A stretch of DNA of 64,000 bases from Flavobacterium sp. ASW18X (lineage in GTDB: Bacteria; Bacteroidota; Bacteroidia; Flavobacteriales; Flavobacteriaceae). Of this stretch, positions 30,961-48,025 are shown in pieces. The notes beneath the pieces are model-generated. The model saw nothing but the letters and a program-made list of their open reading frames with translations, ran no database searches and was not told where the DNA came from. Each line of letters starts with the position of its first letter. The stretch's first letter is position 1. The stretch spans positions 124,001-188,000 of the forward strand of contig NZ_SWKK01000012.1 of the NCBI RefSeq assembly GCF_005144745.1, given 5' to 3'. A program made the position numbers and the translations under genes.

Positions 30961-31505
30961 GGTACGTTGTCTTATGTAAACAACACAACAAAGATGCAAC
31001 ACCATTTTAGGGTATAATTGCTGCATTAAAATTGTGTTTAACTCATTTCATTAAGAAAACATTTAGATATGCACACTTAGCATCTAATGGATACTACTAA
31101 ATAGAGAAGGAAATTTTGAATTTCGTAATTAAGAGCTCGTCTATTTGAAAATTTAATTTTTAAGTAGGGCAACAATTTTCATATTAAAATTTAACTAAGG
31201 CTCTATTGATAAATTCACAATAAACTTCGTCAAACGGATAGCTGCAGACAATTTTAACATCTCATGATTTTTGTCATCAAATACTGCTTTGATGTCTTCT
31301 ATTTTTGTGCTTATGTGGCTTAATTACAAGGTTTTAAAGGGTGTGTTGGTTTTTGATTCAAAAATGCAAATAGATGGTGTCAAAATCTATTTTTAGGTCA
31401 TTTTATAAAATGAAGCGAACCTAATAACCCTCTTAACATAGTTTTAAGTTGCTAAAAAGTGAGGTTGTGTTAACCTCTTACTGATAACTAAAAACTAACT
31501 TGAAT
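30961..31505 (+). promoter_or_regulatory. 545-base intergenic region upstream of the starch SusC gene
   Basis: No convincing gene lies here. It should contain the promoter of the copper operon at its left end, where a near-consensus CATCTTTG is read on the minus strand around 30990. The control region of the starch locus is at its right end: TATTTTTAGGTCAT (31388-31401) overlaps a perfect 16-base palindrome (31398-31413), and a weak -7 TAGTTTTA is at 31439-31446. A short inverted repeat GAGGTT/AACCTC (31461-31477) lies in the leader. A 42-codon open stretch without ATG on the minus strand (31195-31320) may be a gene remnant. Confidence 0.55.
31388..31413. promoter_or_regulatory. GGTCAT box and palindrome upstream of the starch susC
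   Basis: The word GGTCATTTTATAA (31396-31408) recurs at 41874-41886 upstream of the periplasmic GH13. The word TATTTTTAGGTCAT (31388-31401) recurs inverted at 44813-44826 between the second locus's regulator and its SusC. Here the box overlaps the perfect palindrome TCATTTTATAAAATGA (31398-31413), about 95-115 bases before the susC ATG. Confidence 0.55.
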
Positions 31506-34487
31506 ATGCGAAAGAAAATTTCGATGTTATTCTTGGTACTCTTAGCTGTACCATGTATTGCATTAGCGCAAATGAATGTGTCGGGAACCGTCACAGATGA
31601 TATGGGTACTCCTTTACCCGGCGCTACAATTATTTTAAAGGGAACCACAAACGGTGTAACCACAGATTTTGATGGTAATTATACCATCCAAGCCAATGAA
31701 GGCGATGTTTTGGTATTTTCTTACATCGGTCTTAAAAACAAAGAAGTCACCGTAGCTACAGAGGTAATTAATGTTTCTTTAGAAAGTGACGTTGCCCTTT
31801 TAGATGAAGTTGTAATAATTGGTTACGGTACCACTACAAAAAAAGACGCTACAGGTGCCGTGCAGTTATTGACATCAGAAGATTTGAATAAGGGAGCTAT
31901 CACTACAGCAGACCAAATGATTACGGGTAAATCTGCCGGTGTACGTGTGGTTAACAATGGTGGTGACCCAGATGCGGGGATAAACATTCGTATTCGTGGA
32001 GGTTCTTCCTTAAATGCGAATAACAGTCCGTTAATCGTAATTGATGGTGTGCCATTATCCAACCAGAATCCTGCTGGTCAGGCAAACCCATTAACCTTAA
32101 TTAACCCAAATGATATTGAATCTTTTTCGGTATTAAAAGATGCTTCCTCTACGGCTATTTACGGTTCTAGGGCTTCTAATGGGGTAATTATTATTACTAC
32201 TAAGTCTGGTACTAAGGGAGCACCACAGTTTAATTTCTCTTCTAACGTACAGGTTGGTACGTTGAGCAATCAAATAGATATTTTTGATTCTGCGGAGTAT
32301 GTAGATTTTATCCAAAATACCTATCCAGACAGTGCTGGGTTACTAGGTTTAAATGGTACTATTTATGATACCAACTGGCAAGAAGAGATATACAGAACCT
32401 CTTACACCGTTAATAATAACCTTACGGCTAGAGCAAACCTTTTTAATAAAATCCCAATTAGAGCTTCTTTTGGCCATTCAGAAATTGCGGGTATTTTAAA
32501 AGAGTCGCAATTGGATAGGTACACAGCGTCTTTAAATATTGCACCAGAGTTTTTTGATCAGCATTTAAAAGTGACTATCAATGCTAAAGGAATTGCTACA
32601 GAAAAAGACCAGCCAGATGGTGGAGCTATTGGTAGTGCCTTAGCTGCCAATCCAACATTACCAATATATGACCCACAAGGTGGTATTTTCGGAGGCTATT
32701 TTCAATTAACAGATGATCAAGGTATAGTGGGGCCAGCCAACCCATTAGCATTACTAAAGCAACGTGAGCGTAATGAAGATGCAGACCGTTTTATTGGAAG
32801 CGCTGAATTTAGATATAAAATTCATGGTTTTGAAGAGTTAACAGCGGTGGTTAACGCAGGTATAGATTATTCAGAATCTACTATAAACGAGTACTTTTTG
32901 CCAAGTGCCGTGGGCGCATATACCGTTTTTGATGGGCTGGAGATATTCAACAATTTCAGTCCAAGTTACAGAGAAAATCAAATTAAGAGAGACCATTTGT
33001 TAGATGCCTATTTGTCTTACGCTAAAGATTTTGAAGGAGCTTTGAACAGATTAGATGTCCAAGCGGGTTATGCATACCAAAACTTTGTAGTCGATGGCGC
33101 ACCTTTTTCAACAGTTACTAATAATGGTTTTAGAGAGCGTGTAAATGAAAATAGATATTATACAGAGCTTAATCTCCAGTCTTTCTTTGCTAGAGCAAAT
33201 CTTACACTATACGAGAATTTTTTATTGACAGCATCCATTAGAGCAGATGCGTCATCTTTATTTAATGAGAACGATAGATGGGGGTATTTTCCTGCAGCAG
33301 CCTTAGCTTGGAAATTAGATGAGGAAAAATTCTTTGAAGAAACGGATTGGATAGACCAATTAAAACTAAGATTAGGTTGGGGTCTTACAGGACAACAAGA
33401 TGTTACTAATATTGTTGGTTACTATCCTAGTACGGCATCATACGGTATTGGTAATGAGACGGTTCAATATAATTTTAACGGTCAAAGTATTCCAGGTTAT
33501 AGGGCTAATCCTTACAATCCAAATTTAACTTGGGAATCAACTTCAACTTACAATTTAGGAATAGATTTTAATTTATTTTCTAATGTTCTTAGTGGTAATA
33601 TAGATGGTTATATAAGGAATACTACCAACTTGTTGGCAAATGTTCCACAATCAGAAGGAGCCCTGTCAAATGAATTTGTGGAAAATGTTGGTGAAACCGA
33701 AAGTAAAGGTTTTGAAACTGCACTACAATTTAGACCTATACAAACGGATGATTTCACCTTAGAATTCAATGCTAATGCAGGATTTAATGAGACCTATATT
33801 ACTACATTGGGTAATATCACTCAATATGGGAACGGTGGAGGCATTGGCCGTGGAACTGGTGTAAACATTGGGCAAACTGCTGTAGGGGAGCGTAACCGTA
33901 CCTTCTGGTTGTATGAGCAAGTGTATGATGCTGATGGTAAGGCGATAGAGGATGCTTTTGTAGACCAGAATGGCGATGGCATCATCTCTGATGCGGACAG
34001 AAGATTTATTCCGTTTGAACCTAAATGGACGTACGGTTTTGGTACGTTTATTCAGTACAAAAACTTAGATTTTACAGCTAACTTAAGAGGGCAAATAGGA
34101 GGTAACGTCTATAATGCTAATTTGTTAAATAGAGGATTTGCTCAAGCAGCAATTCCGCAAACAGATTCTGGATTCATCAATAATACGTTGGATTTATATG
34201 ATGGTGTGCAGTATAATGGTTTTCCAGAAATTCCTTCAGATACACAGGCCTTATCGGATTTTTATTTATCAGATGCCTCTTTCTTAAGATTAGATAATAT
34301 AACTATTGGTTACAACCTTAAGCCTTTTGAAGACAAAAAATTAAGCTTAAGATTTTACGGTTCTGCCAATAATGTTTTTGTTATTACGGATTATGACGGT
34401 TTAGACCCAGAGAACTTTAATGGTATAGAATCTTCGCCTTATGCAAGACCACGTACCTATACATTAGGTGTAAATGTTGATTTCTAA
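31506..34487 (+). CDS. susC: SusC-type TonB-dependent outer membrane transporter (starch/alpha-glucan locus)
   Basis: This outer-membrane porter pairs with SusD to import glucan oligosaccharides using TonB energy. From the ATG at 31506 the product has 993 residues: a signal peptide (MRKKISMLFLVLLAVPCIALAQ), a carboxypeptidase-regulatory-like domain (about 24-100), the TonB-box/plug junction DEVVIIGYGT and the SusC plug with IRIRGGSSL and LIVIDGVPL. A C-terminal 22-strand barrel ends in Phe (YTLGVNVDF), the usual outer-membrane insertion signature. A TTG two codons earlier is the alternative start. Substrate is assigned from the following starch-module lipoprotein and amylase. It is the first gene of susC-susD-susE-amylase, with 13-base and 11-base gaps. 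Confidence 0.93.
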   Translation: MRKKISMLFLVLLAVPCIALAQMNVSGTVTDDMGTPLPGATIILKGTTNGVTTDFDGNYTIQANEGDVLVFSYIGLKNKEVTVATEVINVSLESDVALLDEVVIIGYGTTTKKDATGAVQLLTSEDLNKGAITTADQMITGKSAGVRVVNNGGDPDAGINIRIRGGSSLNANNSPLIVIDGVPLSNQNPAGQANPLTLINPNDIESFSVLKDASSTAIYGSRASNGVIIITTKSGTKGAPQFNFSSNVQVGTLSNQIDIFDSAEYVDFIQNTYPDSAGLLGLNGTIYDTNWQEEIYRTSYTVNNNLTARANLFNKIPIRASFGHSEIAGILKESQLDRYTASLNIAPEFFDQHLKVTINAKGIATEKDQPDGGAIGSALAANPTLPIYDPQGGIFGGYFQLTDDQGIVGPANPLALLKQRERNEDADRFIGSAEFRYKIHGFEELTAVVNAGIDYSESTINEYFLPSAVGAYTVFDGLEIFNNFSPSYRENQIKRDHLLDAYLSYAKDFEGALNRLDVQAGYAYQNFVVDGAPFSTVTNNGFRERVNENRYYTELNLQSFFARANLTLYENFLLTASIRADASSLFNENDRWGYFPAAALAWKLDEEKFFEETDWIDQLKLRLGWGLTGQQDVTNIVGYYPSTASYGIGNETVQYNFNGQSIPGYRANPYNPNLTWESTSTYNLGIDFNLFSNVLSGNIDGYIRNTTNLLANVPQSEGALSNEFVENVGETESKGFETALQFRPIQTDDFTLEFNANAGFNETYITTLGNITQYGNGGGIGRGTGVNIGQTAVGERNRTFWLYEQVYDADGKAIEDAFVDQNGDGIISDADRRFIPFEPKWTYGFGTFIQYKNLDFTANLRGQIGGNVYNANLLNRGFAQAAIPQTDSGFINNTLDLYDGVQYNGFPEIPSDTQALSDFYLSDASFLRLDNITIGYNLKPFEDKKLSLRFYGSANNVFVITDYDGLDPENFNGIESSPYARPRTYTLGVNVDF

Positions 34488-34500
34488 AAACGAACTACAA

Positions 34501-36060
34501 ATGATAAAAAAAATAATATTCGGACTATTTGCAGCTACTGTTTTAGTAGGCTGTACAGACGATTTAAATACGGAGCCAAGGGTAGAACAGAGTTTAGATA
34601 ACTTATTAGATTCGGACCCAAACGCCACATTAGGTATTCTAGGTAAATTATATGGTGGTCTGGCATTACACGGTATAGGTATACCGGGTAGCGGAAATCA
34701 GCAAGCAGATATTGCCGGAGATGACCCAGGAGAAACGGTATTCTTTAGAGCAATCTGGAATATGCAAGAGCTGACCACAGATATAGCTAAAAACCGTTGG
34801 GGAGATGGTGGTTTAGATCCTTTAACTACGGCTACTAACTGGGTACCTACCAATAAATTCTTTGGTTATTTATATAATAGAAGTTACTTCAATATTGCAC
34901 AAATCAATAACTTTATTATAGATGTACAAAAGACAGATGAACCTAATGCCGATTTATATGTGGCAGAAGCTCGTTTTCTACGTTCGCTATTCTATTATTA
35001 TTTGATGGACACCTTTGGTGGTGTGGTCATTGTAACCGAAGCAGATGGGGTTACGGGCGTAAGAAGAGCGCGCAACACCAGAACAGAAGTGTTTGATTTT
35101 GTAGAGAGCGAATTGTTGGCTGTAGAGGAGACTATACCTGCAAGTAATGAGTATGGTAGGGCAAATAAGGCTGCAGTACACATGTTATTAGCAAAGGTGT
35201 ATTTAAATGCAGAAGTGTATACGGGTACAGACAGGTATGCAGATGCATTGACGTATAGTGAAAAGGTGATTTTAGAATCGCCATTTACTTTGGATGATGA
35301 TTACCAATCTATATTTCAAGGTGATAACTTTACTTCTCCAGAAATAATTTTCCCAATTATAGGAGATAGAAATACTGTACAATCTTTTGGTACGGCTACA
35401 TATCTAACTAATGGTAGTTTAGGAGATACTACTATGCCAATAGCAGACTTTGGAAATTCTGAAAGTTGGTTTGGTCACCGTTGTACGCCTGCTATTTATG
35501 GTTTGTTTGGCGATTTGGAGACTACTCCAGATAGCAGAGCTATTTTCTGGACAGAGGGGCATAGTTATGAAATGGACGATTACCGTACGTGGGAGAGTGG
35601 TTACCCAACAACTAAATTCCAAAATCAATACTCAGACGGAAGTTCTGGTCAGAGTCGTTTCTCTGATACCGATATTCCATTATTCCGTTTAGGAGACGCC
35701 TATCTAATGTATGCAGAAGCATTTTTTAGAGGTGGTGGTGGTTCTGCAGCTCAGGCGGTAGATTACATTAATGCGCTAAGAGAAAGAGCTTACGGTGATG
35801 CTAGTGGAAATATCACAGAAGCAGATTTAACTGAACAGTTCTTGATAGATGAGCGTGCACGCGAATTGTATTATGAAGGTCATAGAAGACAAGATTTAAT
35901 TCGTTTTGGTCGCTTTACTGGAGGAACTTACAATTGGCCTTGGAAAGGTAATGTGGCAGATGGTACTTCTATTCCGGATCATTACAACTTGTTTCCATTT
36001 CCTTTAGAAGCATTACAAGCAAATCCATTATTGGAACAAAACCCAGGCTATACTAACTAA
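34501..36060 (+). CDS. susD: SusD/RagB-type outer membrane glycan-binding lipoprotein
   Basis: This surface lipoprotein caps the SusC barrel and captures the oligosaccharide. From the ATG at 34501 (519 residues) it has a short lipoprotein signal (MIKKIIFGLFAATVLVGCTDD). The SusD helical TPR scaffold includes ARFLRSLFYYYLMDTFGGVVIVTE and AAVHMLLAKVYLNAEVYTG. The family C-terminal segment DERARELYYEGHRRQDLIRFGRF is followed by LFPFPLEALQANPLLEQNPGY. An in-frame start inside the end of susC (34474) would add nine residues before the signal peptide and is rejected. Its ATG is 13 bases after the SusC stop codon. Confidence 0.93.
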   Translation: MIKKIIFGLFAATVLVGCTDDLNTEPRVEQSLDNLLDSDPNATLGILGKLYGGLALHGIGIPGSGNQQADIAGDDPGETVFFRAIWNMQELTTDIAKNRWGDGGLDPLTTATNWVPTNKFFGYLYNRSYFNIAQINNFIIDVQKTDEPNADLYVAEARFLRSLFYYYLMDTFGGVVIVTEADGVTGVRRARNTRTEVFDFVESELLAVEETIPASNEYGRANKAAVHMLLAKVYLNAEVYTGTDRYADALTYSEKVILESPFTLDDDYQSIFQGDNFTSPEIIFPIIGDRNTVQSFGTATYLTNGSLGDTTMPIADFGNSESWFGHRCTPAIYGLFGDLETTPDSRAIFWTEGHSYEMDDYRTWESGYPTTKFQNQYSDGSSGQSRFSDTDIPLFRLGDAYLMYAEAFFRGGGGSAAQAVDYINALRERAYGDASGNITEADLTEQFLIDERARELYYEGHRRQDLIRFGRFTGGTYNWPWKGNVADGTSIPDHYNLFPFPLEALQANPLLEQNPGYTN

Positions 36061-36071
36061 AAACTAAAACG

Positions 36072-37385
36072 ATGAAGAAAAATTTAGCATTTATATATGC
36101 ATCCATCGTGGCAATGGCACTTTTGGTGACAGGTTGTAGCGATGATGATGAAAACATAAGAGTAAGTAGTGAGGCAAGTACACAACTTACACTATCCTCA
36201 ACAGAGGCTTTAGAATTAACTAGAGATATGACGGGAGAAACCGTGTTAAGCCTAAACTGGACTGCTCCAGATTTTGGCTTTACTGGTGCAGTACCTACGT
36301 ATAACGTGGTTGTAGGGGTTGATGCAGCTACAGAGGCTATGCCAGCCCGTGTAAATGTGGGTAACGTGCTAAGTAAAGATTTTTTAGCAGAAGAATTGAA
36401 TGATGCCGTGGCAGATGCAGGTGCTTTAGCTGGCCTAGAAAACGAAGTTAAGATTTGGGTAGAAGCTATGTTAGGTAAAGATGTAGTGGCATCTTCTGCT
36501 GCACAAGTCTTAACCATTACAGGGTATGCAACTACCTTCGATTTAAGTTCGCCTTGGGGTCTAGTGGGTTCTGCAACGCCTAACGGTTGGGATGGTCCAG
36601 ATGTACCTGTTTACAGTACAGCTATCGCTAATGAATTTGTGGCTTACGTTACACTAGTAGACGGCGAGCTTAAAATTCGTGAAAATAACGATTGGACCGT
36701 AAATTATGGGGACACTGGTGCCGATGGTATTTTAGACCAAAACGGTGATAACATCCAAGTTACGGCAGGTACTTACAAAGTAATGTTTAGCTTAAACGAC
36801 TTTACCTACAGCATAGAGCCATTCACATGGGGATTGGTTGGTGATGCTACACCAAATGGTTGGGATGGTCCTGATACTCCTTTAACGTATGACTCTTCTT
36901 CTGACCAATGGAGGGCAGTGGTAACACTGACTGATGGCGAAATGAAGTTTAGACAAAATAATGATTGGGCCGTAAATTTTGGTGATACCGGTGCAGATGG
37001 TACTATTGAAGCAAATGGTGATAATATTGCCGTAGAGGCCGGTAATTATCTAGTTTCGGTAGATTTTACCAATAACCTGTATACTTTAGAACCTATAGAT
37101 ATTTGGGGCTTAGTAGGTGATGCTGCTCCCAATGGATGGGACGGTCCTAACGTACGTTTTACACCAGATTATGCCAACGAAGGCGTTTGGATTTTGGAAA
37201 ATGTTACGTTGTTAGACGGTGAAATTAAATTCCGTACCAATGATGCCTGGGATTTTAATTATGGAGATGATGGCAATGACGGTACGTTAGAGACAGACGG
37301 TGCTAACATTCCCGTAAGTGCAGGTACGTATACCATAACATTGTATTTGGCAGATGCCGATAACCCAACCTACACTATCGAATAA
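36072..37385 (+). CDS. susE: SusE-type surface starch-binding lipoprotein with three repeated modules
   Basis: This is a glycan-binding outer-membrane lipoprotein that holds starch at the cell surface. The 437 residues comprise a lipoprotein signal (ending LLVTGC, Cys22), an Ig-like SusE N-terminal domain (about 35-155), and three copies of a roughly 90-residue beta module. These start W-G-L-V-G-x-A-x-P-N-G-W-D-G-P near residues 160, 255 and 345. Each copy has a conserved DGE(L/M/I)K(F/I)R.N..W..N(F/Y)GD and ends with a TYT/LYTLE strand. The same module is repeated at the C-terminus of the next gene's amylase. Module identity with characterised SusE/SusF starch-binding domains is inferred from layout and sequence pattern. 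Confidence 0.87.
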   Translation: MKKNLAFIYASIVAMALLVTGCSDDDENIRVSSEASTQLTLSSTEALELTRDMTGETVLSLNWTAPDFGFTGAVPTYNVVVGVDAATEAMPARVNVGNVLSKDFLAEELNDAVADAGALAGLENEVKIWVEAMLGKDVVASSAAQVLTITGYATTFDLSSPWGLVGSATPNGWDGPDVPVYSTAIANEFVAYVTLVDGELKIRENNDWTVNYGDTGADGILDQNGDNIQVTAGTYKVMFSLNDFTYSIEPFTWGLVGDATPNGWDGPDTPLTYDSSSDQWRAVVTLTDGEMKFRQNNDWAVNFGDTGADGTIEANGDNIAVEAGNYLVSVDFTNNLYTLEPIDIWGLVGDAAPNGWDGPNVRFTPDYANEGVWILENVTLLDGEIKFRTNDAWDFNYGDDGNDGTLETDGANIPVSAGTYTITLYLADADNPTYTIE

Positions 37386-37396
37386 ATCAAGAAATT

Positions 37397-39682
37397 ATGA
37401 AAATCAAAAAATATATACATCTAAGTCTGGCTGCGTTAACCTTGGTGTTCGCAGCTTGTACTAACGATGATTTTTCGCCCTTAAAAGTTAAAGAAGCAAA
37501 CGATGCAGAAGATTTACCTTCTGGCTCGGCAGCTGGTAGAACAGATGCATTAGTACCGGGTAATGGTGTTATGATGCAAGCCTTTTATTGGGACGTTACC
37601 GAGGGCGGAATTTGGTGGAACAATGTAGAATCCAAACTAGACAGCTGGGCAGCCAACGGAATTGATGCCATCTGGATTCCGCCAATCTCTAAAGGTCAAA
37701 GTGGTGGTTTTTCTATGGGGTACGACCCGGCAGATTACTTCGATTTTGGTGACTTTCAACAGCATGGAACTGTAGAAACCCGCTTTGGTAATCGTGCAGA
37801 ATTAGAAAATATGATTGGTACTGCGCACGAGAATAATATTGCAGTTATTGCAGACATCGTACTAAACCACAATTCTGGTGGACAGTTAGAGTACAACGAG
37901 TTTAGACAAATTGAAACCTATACCTTGTTTGAGCCAGCTTCTGGTTTATTCAATAGAACTTGGTTAAACTATTTGCCTAACGCAGAAAATTTAAAGGATG
38001 AAGGTAGATTTGGTGGTTTTCCAGACTTGGATTTAAAGAATGACTATGTGCGCGATTGGTTATGGCAGTCCGAAGAATCTGTAGCCAATTACTACATGAA
38101 TACGTTGAAAATTGACGGTTGGAGATTCGATTTTGTAAAAGGTTTTTCTCCAGATGTTGTTAAAGATTGGATTGCTACCGTTGGCGGTTATAGCGTTGGG
38201 GAAAATTTTGATGGCAATGTAGAAGGTGTTGTTGGTCCTTGGGTAGAAGCCTCTGGTGCCAACGCTTTTGATTTTCCTAACTTCTTTAATATGCGTAATG
38301 CCTTTTTAAACGGTAATTTAAATGAGTTGGTGAAACCTAGCTTACTATCTACCATGCCAGAGAAAGCTGTGACATTTGTGGGTAACCATGATACGGAAGC
38401 TAGAGATGGAAGTAACGAATTTCCAGATGAGTTTGAAACCCATGCTTACGCATACATTATGAGTGCTCCAGGATATCCTTGTGTATTCTATTCGCACTAT
38501 GAGGATAGCGGTGAAGAGCAAAAAACTAAAATTAACCAGTTAATTCAGATTCGTTCAGAATTAGCTGCTGGGGATTGGACAGTGAATTATGTTTCTAACC
38601 AAGAGTTTGTGGCTATCCGTGGTGGCGATGCAGAGAAACCAGGTTTGGTATTATACATTAACTTAAGTGGAGAAGAAGCGTCCAGAGAAGTACAAACGCA
38701 TTGGGCTAGTGCCAATATTAAGGATTACACAGAAGAATATTTAATTTTTGAGCAATCAGATGCTAGTGGTTTGGTTACATTAAAAGCCCCAGCCAACGGT
38801 TATGCCATTTGGGCAGCTACAGAAGACGAACAGTTGGCTTTCCCAGAAGTATTATATGTGCCAGGAGGTTACCAAGGATGGGACCCATCATCTGCTCCTG
38901 CCTTAAATGCTGTAGAATTACCAAACTTAGCCGGTACGTTTAGCGGTCACGTTCGTTTTACAGAAGCAAGTAACGAATTTAAATTTACAGATGCTCCAAA
39001 TTGGGATAATGGAATTTACGCAGATGAAGGGGATGGTACAACAGGTGTATTGGCTTCTCCTGGGAACAACATTATTTTGGCAGGACCTCAAGATTATGAA
39101 ATCAATGTTGACTTGGCTAACAACACCTGGTCTGCCAACACTTGGGCAATTATAGGTAGTGCTACGCCAAACGGTTGGGACGACCCGGATACGGATATGT
39201 CTTATGATTTTGACAGAAACGTTTGGACGGTAACAACTACCCTTACAGATGGCGAATTAAAATTCCGTGCCAATAATGGATGGGATGTAAACCTAGGGGA
39301 CACTGGTGCAGATGGTGTGTTGGATAATGGTGGTGATAATATTGCTGTAACTGCTGGTAGCTACCAAATAGACTTAGATGTGGCAAACAATTCATTTACC
39401 CTTGGTAATTGGGGTGTTATAGGTAGTGCTACGCCTAGCGGTTGGGACGCTGATACCAACATGACATATGATACGGTTAACCAAGTTTGGACCATTACAT
39501 TAGATTTGGTGGCAGGTGAAATGAAATTTAGATTTAATGATGATTGGGCCGTTAATTTAGGAGATAATGATGCGGATGGTAGCGTGGAGCAAGATGGTGC
39601 TAACATTGCTGTTACAGCAGCGGGGAATTACACTATCACCTTAAATTTAGCTACCAATACATTTGTAGTAGTACAAAACTAA
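37397..39682 (+). CDS. surface alpha-amylase (GH13) with three C-terminal starch-binding modules
   Basis: This endo-acting alpha-amylase lipoprotein (Cys21) degrades starch at the cell surface before import. The GH13 barrel spans about residues 55-470. The catalytic triad is readable as D245 in GWRFDFVKGF, E269 in SVGENFDG and D332 in FVGNHDTEARDG. This pattern resembles the GH13 subfamilies of archaeal and plant amylases (GH13_7/GH13_6) more than classical SusG. Three beta modules follow: one beginning VPGGYQGWDPSSAP (about 490) and two near-copies beginning IGSATPNGWD and IGSATPSGWD, homologous to those in the preceding SusE-like protein. It is the last gene of the operon, with a terminator at 39723. 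Confidence 0.92.
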   Translation: MKIKKYIHLSLAALTLVFAACTNDDFSPLKVKEANDAEDLPSGSAAGRTDALVPGNGVMMQAFYWDVTEGGIWWNNVESKLDSWAANGIDAIWIPPISKGQSGGFSMGYDPADYFDFGDFQQHGTVETRFGNRAELENMIGTAHENNIAVIADIVLNHNSGGQLEYNEFRQIETYTLFEPASGLFNRTWLNYLPNAENLKDEGRFGGFPDLDLKNDYVRDWLWQSEESVANYYMNTLKIDGWRFDFVKGFSPDVVKDWIATVGGYSVGENFDGNVEGVVGPWVEASGANAFDFPNFFNMRNAFLNGNLNELVKPSLLSTMPEKAVTFVGNHDTEARDGSNEFPDEFETHAYAYIMSAPGYPCVFYSHYEDSGEEQKTKINQLIQIRSELAAGDWTVNYVSNQEFVAIRGGDAEKPGLVLYINLSGEEASREVQTHWASANIKDYTEEYLIFEQSDASGLVTLKAPANGYAIWAATEDEQLAFPEVLYVPGGYQGWDPSSAPALNAVELPNLAGTFSGHVRFTEASNEFKFTDAPNWDNGIYADEGDGTTGVLASPGNNIILAGPQDYEINVDLANNTWSANTWAIIGSATPNGWDDPDTDMSYDFDRNVWTVTTTLTDGELKFRANNGWDVNLGDTGADGVLDNGGDNIAVTAGSYQIDLDVANNSFTLGNWGVIGSATPSGWDADTNMTYDTVNQVWTITLDLVAGEMKFRFNDDWAVNLGDNDADGSVEQDGANIAVTAAGNYTITLNLATNTFVVVQN

Positions 39683-39722: not shown

Positions 39723-39751
39723 AAGGGTTGCCAATTGGCAGCCCTTTTTTT
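39723..39751 (+). terminator. terminator of the susC-susD-susE-amylase operon
   Basis: AAGGGTTGCC (39723-39732) pairs with GGCAGCCCTT (39737-39746) with one G-T pair and an AATT loop, followed by a T run to 39751. Confidence 0.8.
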
Positions 39752-39868
39752 ATGAATAGTAATAGAAGCCATAAGCAGCAAGGCCATAGTATCCCTTACC
39801 AAATTTTACTGTAATTACTATATCACAAGAAAATAGAAGTTTGATAGGAACTAAAACTCGGTATTTGC

Positions 39869-39876: not shown

Positions 39877-39926
39877 TACAAAAATTTAAAGCCTTTTAGG
39901 CATAGAATTTAGTAAGAGTTTTGTGG

Positions 39927-41858
39927 ATGCAAAGGGATAAAATTTACAGTATTAAATTGACAATCAATAACTCCAACTGTAGAATTAATCAATTGGTATT
40001 GGTTGTTCTTTTCTTTTTTGCCATCCTTAAAATTCACGGGCAAACTACCTTTATTGTAGATTATGTTCCAGAGTATACCAATGTTTCCCAAGACCTTTTC
40101 CTCTCTGGCTCTTTTAACAACTGGAACCCGTCTGACCCTGATTACAAGTTTACATTACAGGCCGATGGGAATTATGTGTTAGCAAATAAAGAATTTGAAA
40201 ATTCTTGGATTTCTTATAAAATAACCAGAGGTAGTTGGGAAACTGTAGAAGTAAAAAAAGAAGGACTGCCACTCACTGTTCGTAAACATTCTTTTAATAA
40301 AACAGGGTCAGAAACTGTTACCTTACAGGTAGCCGGTTGGACAGATAATTTTAATGCACTATCTAACGTAGATTGGCTTACCGTAAGACTAATAGACATT
40401 CCAAAAAATACACCACCCAATACCTCTATTTATATATGTGGTAATTTTAATGGATGGGTACCTGGTGATGAGCGGTATCAACTAAAAGTTGCGGGTAATG
40501 GAATGTACGAAATTACAATACCAATTTATGAGAATCGGTTGGAGTACAAATTTACTCGTGGTAATTGGTCCACGGTAGAAGGGAGTAGTTATGGCAGACC
40601 ACGACCTAATCGGGTTTTAGAAAAAGAAGATTTAAATCCAAACCAGCCTGTAGAAGACAGTATTGCGTATTGGGAGGACCAATCTTACGGTATTTTTAAT
40701 CCATATACCCTTGTTTTGGTGTTAACGGCACTACAGGGGTTTTTCTTAATTTTCATTATAAACAGTAATCAGAATAACAATAAGTGGGCTAACCAAGCTT
40801 TAAGCGTGCTTATTTTTGTAATATCTTTAACTTTAATAGCGCGTGTAGTAATTTATGACCGCGTTATTTATACCAACTATCCCAAATTATCGCTGCTTAC
40901 AGATTTGGTGTTTTTCTTGTATGGGCCAACGCTGCTTATTTATATTAAAAGATTATTGCATCATGCTAAAAAAGCCATATGGCATTATTGGCCACATTTT
41001 GTGCCATTCTTTCTACAATGTGTTATCTATGTAAGCTTCTTTTTTAAGCCTACACATACCTTTATAGAGCAGAATTTATTTCAGTCTATGGATTCCCCAC
41101 CGTATTCCATTTACGAGGTAATTGTCTTAATAGCATTGGTGTTTAACATTTGGTATTGGTTTAAAGTTAAAAACATCATCAATAATTATTTTAAGAATAT
41201 TGAGCATAATTATTCAACTGATCAAAACATAAAATACCTAAATACCATTCTAATTATTTTAGGTATTTGTCTTGTACTTTGGACGGTTATTATTCTTGTA
41301 GATATATATGGCACTTTTACAGAAAAGCCTGTAAATGCGCTGAACAATTTTTTAATAGATGGTATTTGGATTGTATTTTCTGTAGTGGTGTTTTTCTTAG
41401 GGTATTTTGCCATAAAGCAACCTCAAATTTTTAGAATGCCAGAAGAAGAGGAAAACCAAGAAGAAAAAGCGCCAGAAATAGAAAAGTCACCCTTAGAATC
41501 AGAAGAATTAGAGTCACTTAAACAAGCACTGCATCAAATGATGATAGAGGAGCAAGTATACTTAAATCCTCAATTGAGTTTGCCAGAATTAGCAGAAAGG
41601 ATGAATTCTAACGTACATACGCTTTCTAGAGCAATCAACGCAGGCTTTAATAAGAATTTTAGAGATTTTGTAAATCACTATAGAATAGAAGATTTTATCG
41701 TTCGTGCTCAAGATGAGAAATATAAAAATCAGACCTTCTTAGCTATTGCGTTAGCGGTAGGTTTCAATTCTAAATCCTCCTTTAATCGCTCCTTTAAAAA
41801 AGTCACAAATAAGTCGCCAAGAGAATATTTTAATGACTTAGAGCAAAACACGCCCTAG
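39927..41858 (+). CDS. seven-helix membrane regulator: two periplasmic CBM-like domains, 7 TM, AraC DNA-binding domain
   Basis: This 643-residue protein appears to be a one-piece transmembrane transcription factor. After an N-terminal hydrophobic leader (NQLVLVVLFFFAILKIHGQ) come two E-set/CBM48-like domains with LFLSGSFNNWNPSDPDYKF (about 60-78) and IYICGNFNGWVPGDERYQL (about 170-188). Each is followed by a YKxTRGxW motif. Seven hydrophobic spans lie near residues 262-281, 291-313, 324-342, 357-376, 398-414, 438-461 and 479-497. After an acidic linker, an AraC-type double helix-turn-helix (about 540-640, LSLPELAERMNSNVHTLSRAINAGF and VGFNSKSSFNRSFKKVTNKSPREYF) ends the protein. Its position inside the starch locus suggests it senses alpha-glucan. 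An upstream TTG start is rejected. Confidence 0.87.
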   Translation: MQRDKIYSIKLTINNSNCRINQLVLVVLFFFAILKIHGQTTFIVDYVPEYTNVSQDLFLSGSFNNWNPSDPDYKFTLQADGNYVLANKEFENSWISYKITRGSWETVEVKKEGLPLTVRKHSFNKTGSETVTLQVAGWTDNFNALSNVDWLTVRLIDIPKNTPPNTSIYICGNFNGWVPGDERYQLKVAGNGMYEITIPIYENRLEYKFTRGNWSTVEGSSYGRPRPNRVLEKEDLNPNQPVEDSIAYWEDQSYGIFNPYTLVLVLTALQGFFLIFIINSNQNNNKWANQALSVLIFVISLTLIARVVIYDRVIYTNYPKLSLLTDLVFFLYGPTLLIYIKRLLHHAKKAIWHYWPHFVPFFLQCVIYVSFFFKPTHTFIEQNLFQSMDSPPYSIYEVIVLIALVFNIWYWFKVKNIINNYFKNIEHNYSTDQNIKYLNTILIILGICLVLWTVIILVDIYGTFTEKPVNALNNFLIDGIWIVFSVVVFFLGYFAIKQPQIFRMPEEEENQEEKAPEIEKSPLESEELESLKQALHQMMIEEQVYLNPQLSLPELAERMNSNVHTLSRAINAGFNKNFRDFVNHYRIEDFIVRAQDEKYKNQTFLAIALAVGFNSKSSFNRSFKKVTNKSPREYFNDLEQNTP

Positions 41859-41873
41859 GTGTTCTTAAATAAG

Positions 41874-41886
41874 GGTCATTTTATAA
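41874..41886 (+). promoter_or_regulatory. second copy of the GGTCATTTTATAA box, upstream of the periplasmic GH13
   Basis: GGTCATTTTATAA here is identical to 31396-31408 and lies 84 bases before the GH13 ATG, similar to the 97 bases at the susC gene. It is a candidate regulator site. Confidence 0.5.
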
Positions 41887-41970
41887 GAATTAATTACCAT
41901 ATTATAATTTAAGTCGATACAAACCTCCATTCTCATTAGTTTAGTTGTAACTGAATAAAAAACTAATTTG

Positions 41971-43806
41971 ATGAGAATTACTTCTTTTTTTACTTGGATA
42001 CTGGTGTTAGTTTTAACACAAGTAACCGCCCAAAATTCTATTTCCCGTTTAGAGCCACCAAATTGGTGGGTGGGCATGGAATACAACACTATTGAATTAT
42101 TAGTTTACGGCAAGGATATAGCCACTTTTGATGTTGCTTTAAAACCGTATGATAAGGTACAACTGCAAAGTGCAAAAAAAGTAACTAATCCCAATTATTT
42201 GTTTATCAATTTACAAATAGATGATACTGCTCAATCAGGACATTTAGCCTTAGAATTTAAAAAGAATAATTCGGTGGTATTTGAACAACCTTACGAGCTT
42301 AAAGCCAGGACAAATAACCGTAAGAATATAGAAGGATTTAATACATCTGATGCTATCTACTTAATTACACCAGACCGTTTTGTGAATGGAAATCCAAGCA
42401 ACGATGCTGTTGCAGGAATGTTGGAACAACCCAACCGAAAGGATAAAGGGGGTAGGCACGGAGGAGATGTGCAGGGTATTGTAAATAGTTTGGATGCGAT
42501 TAAGGATATGGGGTTTACCGCCATATGGACCAATCCTATTTTAGAAAATAACATGCCCTCTTACAGTTATCATGGATATGCCATTACTGATTTTTATAAA
42601 GTGGACCCGCGTTATGGTAGCAATGAGGCGTATAGAGCTATGGTAGAGCAAGCCTCTGAAAAGGGAATGAAGGTAATTATGGATATGATTGCCAACCACT
42701 GTGGATTGGAACATTGGTGGATGAAAGATTTACCATCTGACGATTGGATTAACCAATGGGATACCTACACCCAAACCAATCATAAAAAGACCGTGGTTTT
42801 AGATCCCTATGCCACTAAAAAAGATACCAAAGAGTTTTTTGATGGATGGTTTGTCCCAACAATGCCAGATTTAAATCAGCGCAATGCCGCTATGGCTAAC
42901 TACCTAATTCAAAATACACTTTGGTGGATAGAATATTCTGGCATCGCTGGTATCCGTATGGATACATATCCTTATCCAGACATGTACTTTATGCGAGATT
43001 GGACAGCCGCTGTGATGGGAGAATACCCAAATTTTAATATTGTAGGAGAGGAGTGGGTGCTCCGTCCTACTATCGTATCATATTGGCAAAAAGGAAAAGA
43101 AAATGCTAATGGCTATATCTCTGAATTAAAAAGTGTGATGGATTTTCCCATACAACATGCACTAGTAAACTCCTTAAACGATACCAACTCTTGGAATGTG
43201 GTTTATGAGGAATTGGGGCAAGACTACTTATATCCAGACCCAAATAACTTAGTGGTTTTTCCAGATAATCATGATATGAGTCGCATTTTTACCCAGCTTA
43301 ATGAGGATGCAGCCTTAGTTAAACTCGCGTTGACTTACATAGCTACGGTACGTGGTATTCCACAGATTTATTATGGTACGGAAATTCTAATGGGTAATAA
43401 AGGTACCGAGGACCACGGTATTATTAGAACAGATTATCCTGGCGGATGGGCAAAAGACAAGGTAAATGCTTTTACAGAGAAAGGATTAACTGCTGAACAA
43501 AAAGATGCAAAGGCCTATTTAAGTAAGTTATTTAATTGGCGAAAAAATGCGGAGGTTATCCACAACGGAAAGCTGATTCATTTTGCACCAAAAGATAATG
43601 TTTATGTTTTCTTTAGATACAATGAGAATGAAAAGGTGATGGTGATTTTAAATAAGGGAGAAGCAACAACCTTAAATGTAGAAGATTACTTAGAAGTTCT
43701 TGGCGGTAACTTAAATGGTACAGAGATTTTAACCAATAAAACCTATAACAATATGGACCATATAGATATAGCTGCAAAAACTGCAATGGTTATAGAAGTA
43801 GAGTAG
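41971..43806 (+). CDS. periplasmic GH13 neopullulanase/cyclomaltodextrinase-like alpha-glucanase (SusA-like)
   Basis: This enzyme hydrolyses imported maltooligosaccharides in the periplasm. From the ATG at 41971 there are 611 residues: a type I signal peptide (MRITSFFTWILVLVLTQVTAQ), an N-terminal cyclomaltodextrinase-type beta domain (about 22-115) and a GH13 barrel beginning SDAIYLITPDRFVNG. The catalytic residues lie in GIRMDTYPYPD, NIVGEEW and VVFPDNHDMSR. A small C-terminal beta domain follows. The 112 bases upstream hold the shared GGTCAT box. It is downstream of the regulator gene and may be transcribed separately. A TTG one codon earlier is the alternative start. The exact preference (pullulan, cyclodextrin, maltodextrin) cannot be read. 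Confidence 0.92.
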   Translation: MRITSFFTWILVLVLTQVTAQNSISRLEPPNWWVGMEYNTIELLVYGKDIATFDVALKPYDKVQLQSAKKVTNPNYLFINLQIDDTAQSGHLALEFKKNNSVVFEQPYELKARTNNRKNIEGFNTSDAIYLITPDRFVNGNPSNDAVAGMLEQPNRKDKGGRHGGDVQGIVNSLDAIKDMGFTAIWTNPILENNMPSYSYHGYAITDFYKVDPRYGSNEAYRAMVEQASEKGMKVIMDMIANHCGLEHWWMKDLPSDDWINQWDTYTQTNHKKTVVLDPYATKKDTKEFFDGWFVPTMPDLNQRNAAMANYLIQNTLWWIEYSGIAGIRMDTYPYPDMYFMRDWTAAVMGEYPNFNIVGEEWVLRPTIVSYWQKGKENANGYISELKSVMDFPIQHALVNSLNDTNSWNVVYEELGQDYLYPDPNNLVVFPDNHDMSRIFTQLNEDAALVKLALTYIATVRGIPQIYYGTEILMGNKGTEDHGIIRTDYPGGWAKDKVNAFTEKGLTAEQKDAKAYLSKLFNWRKNAEVIHNGKLIHFAPKDNVYVFFRYNENEKVMVILNKGEATTLNVEDYLEVLGGNLNGTEILTNKTYNNMDHIDIAAKTAMVIEVE

Positions 43807-43872: not shown

Positions 43873-44733
43873 TTATCGAGTGGTTTCTCTTTCATAATTT
43901 GTTTTGTACTCCTTGGGAGATAACTGAAACTTTTTTTTGAATGCCCTATTAAAATTGGAAAGCGAATTAAATCCTGCAGCAAAACTTATTTCATTAATAG
44001 ACATATTTGTTTCTATCAATAATTTGGTAACCACACCCAAGCGGTAATCTAACAAGTAACTGGTGAAACTTTGACTTGTTCGCTTTTTAAAAAAATGGCT
44101 AAACGCAGATTCGGACATATTGACCAATTGTGCAACTTTACCCAGCTTAATGTCTTGTTGGTAGTTTTTACGAATGTAATTGATTACCGTAGTTATTCTT
44201 CTGCTTTCTCTTTCTTGGTTATAATTAGCGCTAGGAGGATTGCTTAAAACTTTATAATCCTTAGAAATGGATAACAAATGTAAAATCTCTAAAAAAATGA
44301 GAAAAGATTTAAAGTCCCCGTTGCTTTCTATTGCGTCTATTTTTTCTTTAACCAAGCTTTTGGTAGGTTCGGCAAAAGCGATACCACGTTTAGAAAGCTC
44401 TAGTAGTTTTTTAATGTCTTTAGAGACATTGTATTCCATAAATTTGCTATGCAGAAAGTGTTCTTGAAACTGTATGGTCGTAACACTAGCTGTACTCACT
44501 AAGGCTTCTGATTTCCATAAATGTTTTAATTCTGGACCTAAAAGCGTAAGGTCTGTTTCTTCACATTTTTCTATGGAATCCCCAACGGTGCGTGTACCTT
44601 TGAAGTTGGTAATTAAATTTAATTCGTATTCATCATGAAAATGCAAAGGATAATCAAAAAGTGCATTTTCATGTTTTAAAATAACAAAAGGGTCATTAGA
44701 TTTTATGGGGGTAATTTCCTTAATCGACTTCAT
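43873..44733 (-). CDS. AraC-family transcriptional regulator (cupin sensor plus HTH)
   Basis: This is a cytoplasmic AraC regulator of 286 residues. An N-terminal cupin-like half begins with LKHENALFDYPLHFHDEYELNLI, whose HxHxxxE pattern is typical of sugar-sensing AraC proteins. The C-terminal double helix-turn-helix (about 185-284) has IKLGKVAQLVNMSESAFSHFFKKRTSQSF and AAGFNSLSNFNRAFKKKFQLSPKEYK. It is divergent from the second SusC gene, with 208 bases between, and is the natural local regulator of that locus. An inverted copy of the TATTTTTAGGTCAT box lies 80 bases upstream of its ATG. The ligand is unknown. Confidence 0.88.
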   Translation of the reverse strand: MKSIKEITPIKSNDPFVILKHENALFDYPLHFHDEYELNLITNFKGTRTVGDSIEKCEETDLTLLGPELKHLWKSEALVSTASVTTIQFQEHFLHSKFMEYNVSKDIKKLLELSKRGIAFAEPTKSLVKEKIDAIESNGDFKSFLIFLEILHLLSISKDYKVLSNPPSANYNQERESRRITTVINYIRKNYQQDIKLGKVAQLVNMSESAFSHFFKKRTSQSFTSYLLDYRLGVVTKLLIETNMSINEISFAAGFNSLSNFNRAFKKKFQLSPKEYKTNYERETTR

Positions 44734-44941: not shown

Positions 44942-47900
44942 ATGAAGAGGATTAACCTTTTATGGTTATTCTCCACTATGCTGATTTTGTTGTCCATGAC
45001 TACTGCACATGCGCAAATCAAAATTAGTGGAATAGTAACAGACCAAGCTGGCCAGCCGTTTCCAGGCGCCACAATTTTAGAGAAAGGTACCCAAAACGGT
45101 ACTACAACAGATTTTGATGGATTGTTTTCCTTATCGGTAAGCAATACAACAGCACAACTAGAAGTATCCTATATAGGCTTTGCTTCTAAAGTACTTGCTG
45201 TAAATGACCAGACCAATTTTACCATTATTCTGGAAGAAGATGTGTCTCAGCTAGATGAGGTAGTGGTTGTGGGTTACGGTACGGTAAAAAAGAGTGATCT
45301 TACAGGCTCTGTGGCTGCAGTAGATATGGATGATATTCCCTCTAGACCAGCAAACTCAGTAGATGGTTTATTACAAGGTCAAGTGGCAGGGGTGCAAGTT
45401 ACTGCACCTTCTGATAATCCTGGAGCCGGTGCTGTGATACGTATTAGAGGAGGTAGCTCTTTAAGAGGAGGTAATGACCCTCTAGTAGTAGTAGACGGTT
45501 TCCCGATTGGTAATGCTGGGGATTTAAAACAAATTTCGCCACAGGACATTGCTTCTATGGAGATTTTAAAAGATGCTTCTGCATCTTCCATTTACGGTTC
45601 TCGTGGTGCTAATGGTGTAATAATCATTACCACTAAAAAAGGTAAAATGAATAGTACAGAGGTCTCTATTTCCCAGCAAAATACCTTTTCCAGATTTACT
45701 TCAGAATTGAATCTTTGGAGAGACCCTGTATTGATGGCAGAGTTGAGCAACGAGGGTAGAATAAATGGAGGTTTTGTTCCGCTTTACGTAGGTGCGCCAG
45801 ACCCAAATGGCGTGTATTATCCTTCTGTAAATGAGTTAAGAAATGGTTCTTGGGCGTTTAATACACCTTGGGATAAGGTGGTCTTTAGGGACCCAATTTC
45901 TAATAACACCAATTTTGCAGTTCGTAGTCAGAATAAGGATTCGCAATTTAGTTTAAGTGGTACATATTATACTAATGAAGGGGTTTATATAGATAGTGAT
46001 TACGAGAAATTGAACGTAAACCTAAACACTTTAAGAAAATTATACGACGGTAAAGTTACGGTGGGCGCCAATGTTATCTATTCTAAAGGCAAACAGAATA
46101 ATAATAACGATTTAGCATATTGGAGAAATCCTATATTTCCTATCTATCAGAATAATGACCCTACGCAGGATTATTTTCTTATTGGGCCTCAAGATTTTAG
46201 CCACCCTATAGCCCTGACGAATACGAGGTCTAATACCAATACATTTATGGATTTTATTAGTTCTGTATTTGCAGAAATTGAGTTAAATCCATCTTTAAAA
46301 CTTAAATCGCAACTAAATTATAAGTTTGGTAAATCTACTACAGATTTCTACAATCCTAAGCGATATACTTTAGATGGTACCTTTAATAATGGTGCTGGTG
46401 GTATCAATAATTGGGAGTCTAATGAAACGGTTTCAGAAACCTTTTTAACGTTTGATAAAAAGTTAAAGGATAAACATAGTTTTAATGCTATGGGTGGAGT
46501 TTCTTATCAATATTACCAAGCCAGAACTTCAGAACTTAGAGCGTTCGATTTTTTAAATGAATCTTTAGGTAATGGCAATCTTGCGGTAGGCAATCCAGAA
46601 AAACAAAGAGTCGCCAATAGCAAAACCGAAACAGTATTGTATTCTGGTTTAGGTAGATTAAATTATGCTTATGACGATAAATATCTGGTAACTTTTACAA
46701 TGCGAGCGGATGGTTCTTCTAAATTCGGAGAAAACAATCAATGGGCTTATTTTCCTTCCGGAGCAATAGGCTGGAAACTGCATAACGAGAAATTTATTCA
46801 AGATTTAGATGTTTTTGATGAATTTAAACTTAGAGGTAGTTTTGGTATCTCTGGTAACCAAGGTATTTCTCCTTACCTAATTAACAGTAGGTATGGGCAA
46901 GACCAGTATTACGTAGATGGTTCTTGGCGTACAGCCATTGGTCCAGGATTTGTAGTTGGGCAAGACAGCCAAAGTGGTAAAAAAACTTGGGGTGGTATAC
47001 CTAATCCAGATTTAAAATGGGAGACCACAAGACAATATAATATTGGAGCAGACTTTGCTTTTTTAGATAGAAGACTAAGAATTACGGTAGATTACTATAA
47101 CAAGTATACATCAGATTTATTAAGAGAAAGATTGCTGTCTCCGTCTTCTTCTTATGATAGAATGTGGGTGAATGATGGTGAAATAGAAAACAAAGGGATA
47201 GAACTTACCTTAGATGGTACTATAATCAGTACAGACAAGTTAGATTTAGCCGGTACACTCATCATGTCTAGGAACAAAAATAAAGTGGTGAATCTAGGTG
47301 ATGCCTTGGCTTCTGGTTTAAATACAGATAAGTTAACAGGTACTAAATACGAGTTTTCTGGGAGCCAAGTAGAAGCGTTTAGAGCTATCCCTAACATATT
47401 AGCTGTGGGGCAACCTATAAATGTATTTTATGGTTACCAAGTAGATGGTATTGTGCAAAATTAAACAGAAGGCTTGGCGGCTGGATTATCTGGAAATTTA
47501 GCGCAACCGGGAGAATTTAAGTATGTAGACTTAAATGAAGATGGTGTAATAGACGAAGATGATAGAACAATAATTGGTGACCCAAATCCTGATTTTACGG
47601 CCAGTTTAAATTTACAAGCAAGATACAAACAGTTTGATTTGTCTTTGTTTTTTAATGGGGTGTTTGGGCAAGATGTTTTTAATACCAAGAAATTTGGTGA
47701 GCCTAGTAATTTACCGTTTAGGTGGACTTTGGATAATCCTACTAATGCGTATCCAAGCTTAAGAGACGGTAGAATTCTCTATATGTCAGATTGGTTTATA
47801 GACAAAGGAAGCTTTGTAAGGCTACAGAACTTAACCCTTGGCTATAGTTTTGAGGATTTAAAAATGGCATTCTTTAAATCAGGGAGAATCTCTTTAAACG

Positions 47901-48025
47901 CCACCAATTTATTTACACTTACAGATTTTGAAGGTTACGACCCAGAATTAGGAGAAAATGGTATTTACTGGGGCGGTTATCCAAAGCTTAGAAATTGGAC
48001 TATAGGACTAGAATTTACATTCTAG
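44942..48025 (+). pseudogene. SusC-type TonB-dependent transporter interrupted by an in-frame TAA
   Basis: The gene encodes a SusC-type outer-membrane porter: signal peptide (ending TTAHAQ), carboxypeptidase-regulatory-like domain, DEVVVVGYGTVKKSDLTGSV, plug with IRIRGGSSLRGGNDPLVVVDGFP and a long barrel. After codon 840 (YGYQVDGIVQN) there is a TAA at 47462-47464, and the same frame continues with TEGLAAGLSGNLAQPGEFKYVDLNEDG, a normal SusC segment, to the natural end YTF-like (GLEFTF) at 48025. A single base change thus removes the last 187 residues of the barrel. The pieces are 44942-47464 and, reopening at 47474 in the same frame, to 48025. Neighbouring genes are intact, so the lesion looks recent or is a sequencing error. 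Confidence 0.88.

Follow-up and report, generated by a model that had tools for sequence, protein, structure and literature searches.

How might a starch-utilization locus be controlled by a regulator that appears to be built into the membrane? The question is raised by a 643-aa AraC-family protein encoded in a 64,000-nucleotide stretch of DNA from Flavobacterium sp. ASW18X (contig NZ_SWKK01000012.1, positions 124,001 to 188,000; hereafter the window), where its gene lies between a susC-susD-susE-amylase run (31500-39682) and a neopullulanase gene. An original prediction, made from the letters of the DNA, held that this single polypeptide joins a secreted leader, two glycan-binding-like domains, seven membrane spans and a complete AraC DNA-binding domain. 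Computation established the domain layout, the predicted fold, a topology signal, conservation of the locus, and a shared promoter element with fixed spacing. We consider it probable that the regulator is a one-component, membrane-embedded alpha-glucan receptor that activates the susCDE-amylase and neopullulanase operons from the membrane.

Layout of the regulator and its ectodomains

The open reading frame (ORF), for which a TTG at 39921 is an alternative start (frame 39921..41858), contains the leader segment, the cores FNNWNP (W66) and FNGWVPG (W177), and both YKxTRGxW motifs (K98/W104 and K208/W214), just as had been described. Hydropathy gives an N-terminal segment at aa 18-36, followed by seven spans beginning at aa 260, 291, 322, 355, 394, 440 and 475; A-Q stands at the predicted cleavage position in most close relatives. 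The full-length AlphaFold2 model, built from 8 sequences, has a mean predicted local distance difference test score (pLDDT) of 60, rising to ~80 in the AraC domain and in each ectodomain, and draws seven long helices in the span region at pLDDT <50 over aa 253-436. The odd number of spans originally claimed is thus upheld by hydropathy and by a model of low confidence. Here we call proteins that carry this helix block and an AraC domain AraC-7TM proteins, and those with the ectodomain as well, fusions. Lysine plus arginine is higher in the predicted inside loops in all 14 fusions, and in 49/49 AraC-7TM proteins counted, fusions included, which supports an N-out/C-in topology. Because seven helices follow a periplasmic N-terminus, the AraC domain would lie in the cytoplasm, as foreseen. 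That domain is complete: HTH_18 (aa 555-636, 4.9e-13) and HTH_AraC (1.7e-7) both exceed the Pfam cut-offs, and, in the top 15 rows of a VIA comparison of the full model, 103-113 residues of aa ~526-639 align with AraC domains at Z 11-13.5 and root-mean-square deviation (rmsd) 2.1-3.3. No histidine kinase or receiver domain was found among the regulator's Pfam matches at E up to 1. Homologues with the same layout are 66-81% identical in seven close relatives and 29-51% identical in six more distant ones; because they maintain the layout, and because the ectodomain family comprises 95 units with an invariant W177, the layout is not a product of chance.

What do the two ectodomains, of ~107 aa each by an iterated profile, resemble? 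The Pfam matches lie in the second ectodomain, at aa ~166-214, and fall below cut-off (AMPK1_CBM 0.001, CBM_48 0.0066, X25 0.017), so that the scores required for CBM48/AMPK membership are not reached (19.6 of 26.8 bits for AMPK1_CBM, 17.2 of 22.4 bits for CBM_48). Across the loci fetched, the iterated profile yielded 95 usable units, one of 96 being left out for profile coverage <70%. W177, G212 and E218 are conserved in all 95 units, W214 in 93 and K208 in 92. When 46 units were scanned with Pfam at E up to 0.1, AMPK1_CBM was found in 23 and X25 in 14, and a 46-unit profile run against solved structures matched the Bacteroides ovatus GH13A-Sus amylase (3.9e-4) and the AMPK beta glycogen-binding domains (0.003). 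In AMPK beta-1, W100, K126, W133 and N150 are described, on the basis of a structure with beta-cyclodextrin, as critical for carbohydrate binding (PMC4032982). The profile alignment, which ends ahead of the AMPK asparagine position, sets W177 and W214 onto the AMPK tryptophans (FNNW, GQW) and, in the beta-1 alignment only, K208 onto the AMPK lysine. Read from the sequence, a putative AMPK-type site of two tryptophans and a lysine is present in both ectodomains.

Structure comparison leads to the same superfamily. With the full model, Foldseek ranks a CBM26 domain first, an archaeal S-layer protein second, and the B. ovatus GH13A-Sus amylase at ranks 3-13 and 16; lower ranks hold branching enzymes, AraC domains, and CBM20 and AMPK glycogen-binding domains (E about 0.003). 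In the same top 15 VIA rows, 89-95 residues of aa ~35-137 align with CBM20 domains (Z 8.8-9.8, rmsd 2.0-2.8), and ectodomain 2 modelled alone from 15 units (pLDDT 88) reaches Z up to 8.4 against CBM20. Foldseek with ectodomain 2 alone returned nothing at E <0.001, though its top rows are starch-binding domains, and the PDB, searched by sequence with just the ectodomain, gave a lectin as its best match, at E 0.16. Since middling Z values are common, we base the assignment of the fold on the concordance of sequence, fold and locus. Together these make the ectodomains look like alpha-glucan-binding domains of the starch-binding superfamily (CBM20/26/48 fold). Of the prediction of CBM48/E-set-like domains, the beta-sandwich and the starch-binding likeness stand; the family has to be widened, the nearest folds being CBM26, CBM20 and AMPK-type CBM48, with the Pfam CBM_48 cut-off unreached.

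The ectodomain family as a whole is tied to alpha-glucan loci, because in other genomes the unit is also fused to esterases, and because in at least 13 other family genomes, by our count, an ectodomain match ends within 260 bp of a neopullulanase-homologue match. Two further arrangements of the unit were seen. Seven proteins of 333-345 aa from other families of the order (L066, L067, L069, L070, L072, L075 and L078) have three starch-binding-like units behind a leader and no other part, and a ~1180-aa frame at L018 joins one such unit to an esterase-like domain and to a long C-terminal region, GH31-like by eye.

The starch locus and its shared promoter element

The order susC-susD-susE-amylase-regulator-neopullulanase is maintained in seven close relatives (L038-L043, L120), and the order from susC to neopullulanase likewise in genome G120, at 34-63% identity. 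Elsewhere the regulator precedes susC-susD-susE (L121, L122) or the neopullulanase gene (L123), or has amylase-like sequence after it (L044); at L119 the contig begins just ahead of the regulator, and neopullulanase comes next. A SusC- or GH13-like gene lies within 1.5 kb of 14/14 fusion genes, the window's included, versus 1/35 AraC-7TM genes without ectodomain, whose loci were covered for 1.5 kb per side. The expectation that the same layout would recur beside GH13/SusC genes is thereby confirmed. Similarity to the window protein served to find the ectodomain loci, so that conservation counts are biased towards it; L008, L009 and L046 were left out as duplicates, L045 (Odoribacter), not a fusion, was not counted, and L104, a 272-aa frame, was left out of the tree, topology and neighbour counts. 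In the window, the regulator gene probably has its own promoter, because a hairpin with a T run parts it from the amylase gene (Table 1). As a separate observation, the C-terminal repeats of the amylase (37397-39682) resemble the neighbouring SusE-like protein, so that a binding protein and an enzyme have common domains.

Do the two operons that flank the regulator share a site at which it could act? In four genomes, the DNA upstream of susC holds a block, TTAGGTCATTTTATAA then AATGAAGCGAA or similar, amid poorly conserved sequence, and an element of ~27 bp (29 bp as mapped) precedes both operons. A 16-mer was found exact, one copy each, before susC in G000, G164, G555 and G120, and at 0-1 mismatch in five more genomes at positions fitting the susC start, where position or matching flank would link it to susC. 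Since counts at up to two mismatches were about equal to those of a reversed-pattern control, only sites with 0-1 mismatch before susC were used. Further 1-mismatch hits lie away from susC in the L038 and L039 genomes, and a Maribacter metagenome-assembled genome (MAG; L196) has a second exact copy ahead of a second susC-like gene (994 aa), off the contig of the regulator locus.

The gap between regulator and neopullulanase genes contains an alignable element in 10/10 genomes. From the CA of the element to a TAnTTT box the distance is 39 in all ten of these gaps and at 8/9 susC sites; at the window's susC, where the box is TAGTTT at 31439, downstream of the element, it is 40. The offset is thus constant in 18/19 promoters, with the end of the element 16-17 bp upstream of the box; the core of each gap was chosen by pattern before the +39 distance was measured. 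TAnTTT resembles the flavobacterial -7 box, given as TAnnTTTG (PMC9723704). Scored by matrix against 500 shuffles, eight gaps (G120, G205, L038, L039, L041, L042, L043 and G555) had 0-3 shuffles as good, and in the two most divergent, G120 and G205, the element outscores all 500. An extra half-element 21 bp upstream, or two helical turns, matches at 7-8 of 8 bases in six of the ten gaps and at 0-5 in the remaining four; the G555 copy is present but shifted by 2 bp. We infer that the regulator binds the shared element.

Table 1. Positions in the window of the regulator gene, the parts of its product, candidate control sites and adjoining starch genes
Feature	Position	Strand	Basis
Membrane AraC regulator gene, 643 aa, stop included	39927..41858	+	ORF from ATG; Pfam HTH_18 4.9e-13
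Signal peptide, aa 1-38, predicted cleavage before Q39	39927..40040	+	hydropathy, alignment, N-termini
Ectodomain 1, aa 41-147, CBM20-like beta-sandwich; W66, K98, W104	40047..40367	+	AlphaFold2, unit alignment, VIA
Ectodomain 2, aa 152-259, CBM20/CBM48-like beta-sandwich; W177, K208, W214, N228	40380..40703	+	Pfam, profile, models
Seven transmembrane spans, aa 260-493	40704..41405	+	hydropathy, AlphaFold2, loop charges
Acidic linker, aa 494-528	41406..41510	+	sequence; low pLDDT aa 489-523
AraC-type DNA-binding domain, aa 529-639	41511..41843	+	Pfam; VIA
Conserved element upstream of susC, predicted site of the regulator, with palindrome TCATTTTATAAAATGA	31393..31421	+	comparison of relatives
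Related element before neopullulanase gene	41892..41920	+	TAGTTT box 16 nt downstream
Extra half-element GGTCATTTTATAA, 21 bp upstream of main neopullulanase-gap element	41874..41886	+	gap alignment
SusC-like TonB-dependent transporter	31500..34487	+	TIGR04056 1.3e-217
SusD-like lipoprotein	34474..36060	+	NF033071 SusD 8e-104, below own cut-off
SusE-like starch-binding lipoprotein	36072..37385	+	PF14292, PF16411
GH13 alpha-amylase, probable lipoprotein, C-terminal SusE/SusF-like domains	37397..39682	+	leader and domain matches
Terminator-like hairpin and T run, between amylase and regulator genes	39725..39752	+	by eye; counterparts in relatives
GH13 neopullulanase/cyclomaltodextrinase-like enzyme, N-terminal hydrophobic leader (SusA-like)	41968..43806	+	PF00128, PF09087, PF10438

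A probable membrane receptor and its rivals

How might a signal pass from the periplasm to the two promoters? The signal peptide would place both starch-binding-like domains in the periplasm, where they might bind maltooligosaccharides that SusCD imports and the neopullulanase trims. Binding would rearrange the seven-helix block, probably inside a dimer, and the rearrangement would let the linker-tethered AraC domain occupy the elements upstream of the -7-like boxes. There it would recruit RNA polymerase and so turn on the susCDE-amylase operon and the neopullulanase gene.

Several observations weigh against this scheme. In the protein, ectodomain 1 carries V118 where 75/95 units carry N, and the arrangement of the seven helices is without confidence in AlphaFold (pLDDT mostly <50). 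In the DNA, the window's own neopullulanase gap is not significant by the strict matrix score alone, 34 of 500 shuffles being as good (116/500 for L040), and close relatives supply eight of the ten gaps, which are not independent. No copy of the element was seen ahead of the regulator gene, nor, by eye, at the distant loci L121-L123, where no hit at up to two mismatches lies on the locus contig. Finally, the perfect palindrome in the susC element would suit another dimeric factor.

The last point leads to an explanation that we regard as unlikely, in which the protein is membrane-bound, but the element belongs to another regulator such as a LacI-type maltose repressor, and the protein controls something else or fine-tunes. 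A 16-bp palindrome inside the susC element agrees with this, as does the presence of LacI-type homologues in 7/7 genomes searched. In G119 and G014, the LacI-type gene heads a maltose gene run on one strand that includes the neopullulanase homologue, GH65 and an esterase, to which the G014 run adds a transporter, a HAD-type protein and GH31. On the other side, the element stands at the regulator gene's neighbours on either side, its neopullulanase-gap versions are not palindromic, and the LacI gene is found elsewhere, adjoining GH65, in the three regulator-bearing genomes inspected; in the window's genome the LacI and GH65 locus is on a separate contig. The element was considered as a LacI operator and was not found in five LacI loci, those of the three regulator-bearing genomes and of two regulator-free ones (L150, L151), the best sites having 6 to 9 mismatches of 25. 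Alpha-glucan use would seem to be split into an internal part under LacI control and an uptake part under control of the membrane receptor.

Might the same protein work in another direction? Repression released by alpha-glucan binding, or an AraC domain freed by regulated proteolysis upon ligand binding, would be permitted by the acidic linker of ~35 aa. AraC-type activators commonly contact RNA polymerase at a position ~16 nt upstream of the -7-like box, and the offset of element from box, exact in 18/19 promoters with the element ending 16 nt upstream, speaks for activation; we judge release or proteolysis to be rather unlikely. One may also ask whether the ectodomains sense glucan at all. 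They could be structural or bind a protein partner (SusD, SusE, a cell-wall component), while the helix block senses something else, e.g. the state of the membrane. AraC-7TM relatives without ectodomain exist, so that the helix block alone can suffice, but the binding-site tryptophans and lysine are conserved, and the esterase fusions and the nearness of the domain to neopullulanase homologues described above also argue for glucan. We find this last explanation quite improbable. The receptor that activates from the membrane is the reading that we carry into the comparisons below.

Known systems, the AraC-7TM chassis and neighbouring genes

Regulators of Bacteroides polysaccharide loci are described as SusR-like proteins, hybrid two-component systems (HTCS) and sigma/anti-sigma pairs (PMC3878776). 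SusR of Bacteroides thetaiotaomicron (BT3705) is reported there to be a membrane protein with a periplasmic sensor that binds maltose and activates susA and susBCDEFG. The window protein is, by prediction, likewise a membrane protein with a periplasmic sensor and a cytoplasmic DNA-binding part, and the shared element predicts the same two-operon logic, susA-like plus susCD-like. The two differ in the DNA-binding part, an AraC/HTH_18 domain in the window protein, whereas that of SusR is described as having no significant similarity to other known factors (PMC3878776). Predicted SusR motif sites are given as 67 or 77 bp apart in the same source; the window locus has one ~27-bp element, in some promoters with a half-element 21 bp upstream. 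Both contrasts set the window protein beside the published description of SusR. HTCS, as described, likewise combine carbohydrate sensing in the periplasm with an AraC-type output within one polypeptide; the window protein differs in having seven spans in place of any histidine kinase or receiver match.

Conceptually the closest layout is that of the 7TMR-DISM receptors, with an extracytoplasmic domain, seven helices and a variable cytoplasmic output. PF07695 matches neither the protein (E up to 1) nor anything in the genome (E up to 0.001). Descent of the helix block from 7TMR-DISM was tried by profile-profile comparison and rejected, the probability being 0.5% versus 4.3% for the reversed control. 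As the DISM profile was shallow, the outcome means that support is absent, and falls short of a disproof. The units differ from CBM20, CBM26 and CBM48 (AMPK) domains, whose predicted fold and binding-site W, K and W they share, in falling below the Pfam cut-offs and in being parts of receptors, not of enzymes or kinase subunits. Zobellia galactanivorans, from a related genus, also has an AraC-family regulator of a polysaccharide locus, CgrA (ZGAL_3159), but it controls carrageenan genes, and the word "transmembrane" is absent from the main text of its report (PMC5698469). The window protein is best described as a regulator that works like SusR and is structurally distinct: not SusR, an HTCS or a recognisable 7TMR-DISM. 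In a literature search of partial coverage, whose silence weighs little, no paper was recognised that describes this architecture or such a starch regulator. If the reading is correct, polysaccharide loci have a further sensor layout, for which a likely ligand class, a pair of predicted target promoters and a precise candidate binding site can be given. Zobellia carries a homologue of the fusion regulator, and AraC regulator deletion mutants have been reported in that genus (PMC5698469).

How special is the architecture? The original prediction called it a different way of sensing, and that view stands for the combination with alpha-glucan-binding-like domains; the AraC-7TM chassis itself is common in Bacteroidota. 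By our count of the matches listed, at least 33 of 395 phylum genomes contain the helix block (E up to 1e-8), a lower bound, few candidates having been scored per genome. In the window's genus, a single genome can have as many as nine matches to the whole protein (E up to 1e-20), a few in the DNA-binding part only and nearly all without this ectodomain. Proteins of ~380 aa without ectodomain have the same helix block (profile probability 100%) and AraC domain, and differ in their surroundings, 34/35 being without a SusC-, SusD- or GH13-like match within 1.5 kb. The ectodomain-bearing form was found in 3/199 family, 3/11 genus, 3/395 order and 4/395 phylum genomes, in overlapping samples that each include the window's genome, and in 7/8 named loci (Euzebyella, Cytophaga sp. 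FL35, Croceivirga, two Zobellia, a Maribacter MAG and Pseudochryseolinea).

What evolutionary steps account for the fusion? In a midpoint-rooted tree of 57 helix-plus-AraC sequences, the 14 distinct fusions form one group (support 99/98), in which the three that belong to other orders of the class branch deeply. Independent assembly of the fusion in each group was rejected, because all 14 lie on one side of that branch under the midpoint root, although L044 is on a long branch. One ectodomain unit is present in L044, L093 and L095, and two in the other eleven. The seven sampled members of a subfamily, L141-L147, also form one group and carry, between a leader-like segment and the first span, an N-terminal extension of ~100 aa unlike the starch-binding units; this different extension suggests that ectodomains joined the chassis more than once.

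We would give an even chance to a broader proposal: that AraC-7TM one-component receptors form a large class in Bacteroidota, as yet undescribed, whose helix block would pass an outside signal to a promoter-bound domain with neither kinase nor second messenger. The starch-binding clade, of one old origin and present in more than one order, would be the first with a nameable ligand class and target promoters, binding elements of its own locus while in the membrane. The starch regulator would give a starting point for work on the numerous AraC-7TM proteins in the phylum, and glycan-responsive gene control could make good use of a seven-helix switch tethered to the membrane.

Other features of the window are noted briefly. 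Downstream of the starch locus, a second susC-like gene (44942-48025) is split by an in-frame stop into 840 aa and a further 183 aa of one frame, and heads a run with GH130 phosphorylase, GH5-like, sodium-solute symporter and possible SusD-like genes, perhaps a mannan-type locus. Beside that run lies a divergent soluble AraC gene (43873-44733). It was considered as a partner of the starch regulator and set aside: no match to it is listed at any of 13 homologous loci, and it adjoins the different, mannan-type locus. Just upstream of the starch locus, 21559-30066 encodes a 2835-aa protein with SprB repeats and a C-terminal domain for type IX secretion, and near the window end, at 60534-62873, there is a chondroitinase B-like polysaccharide lyase of 779 aa.

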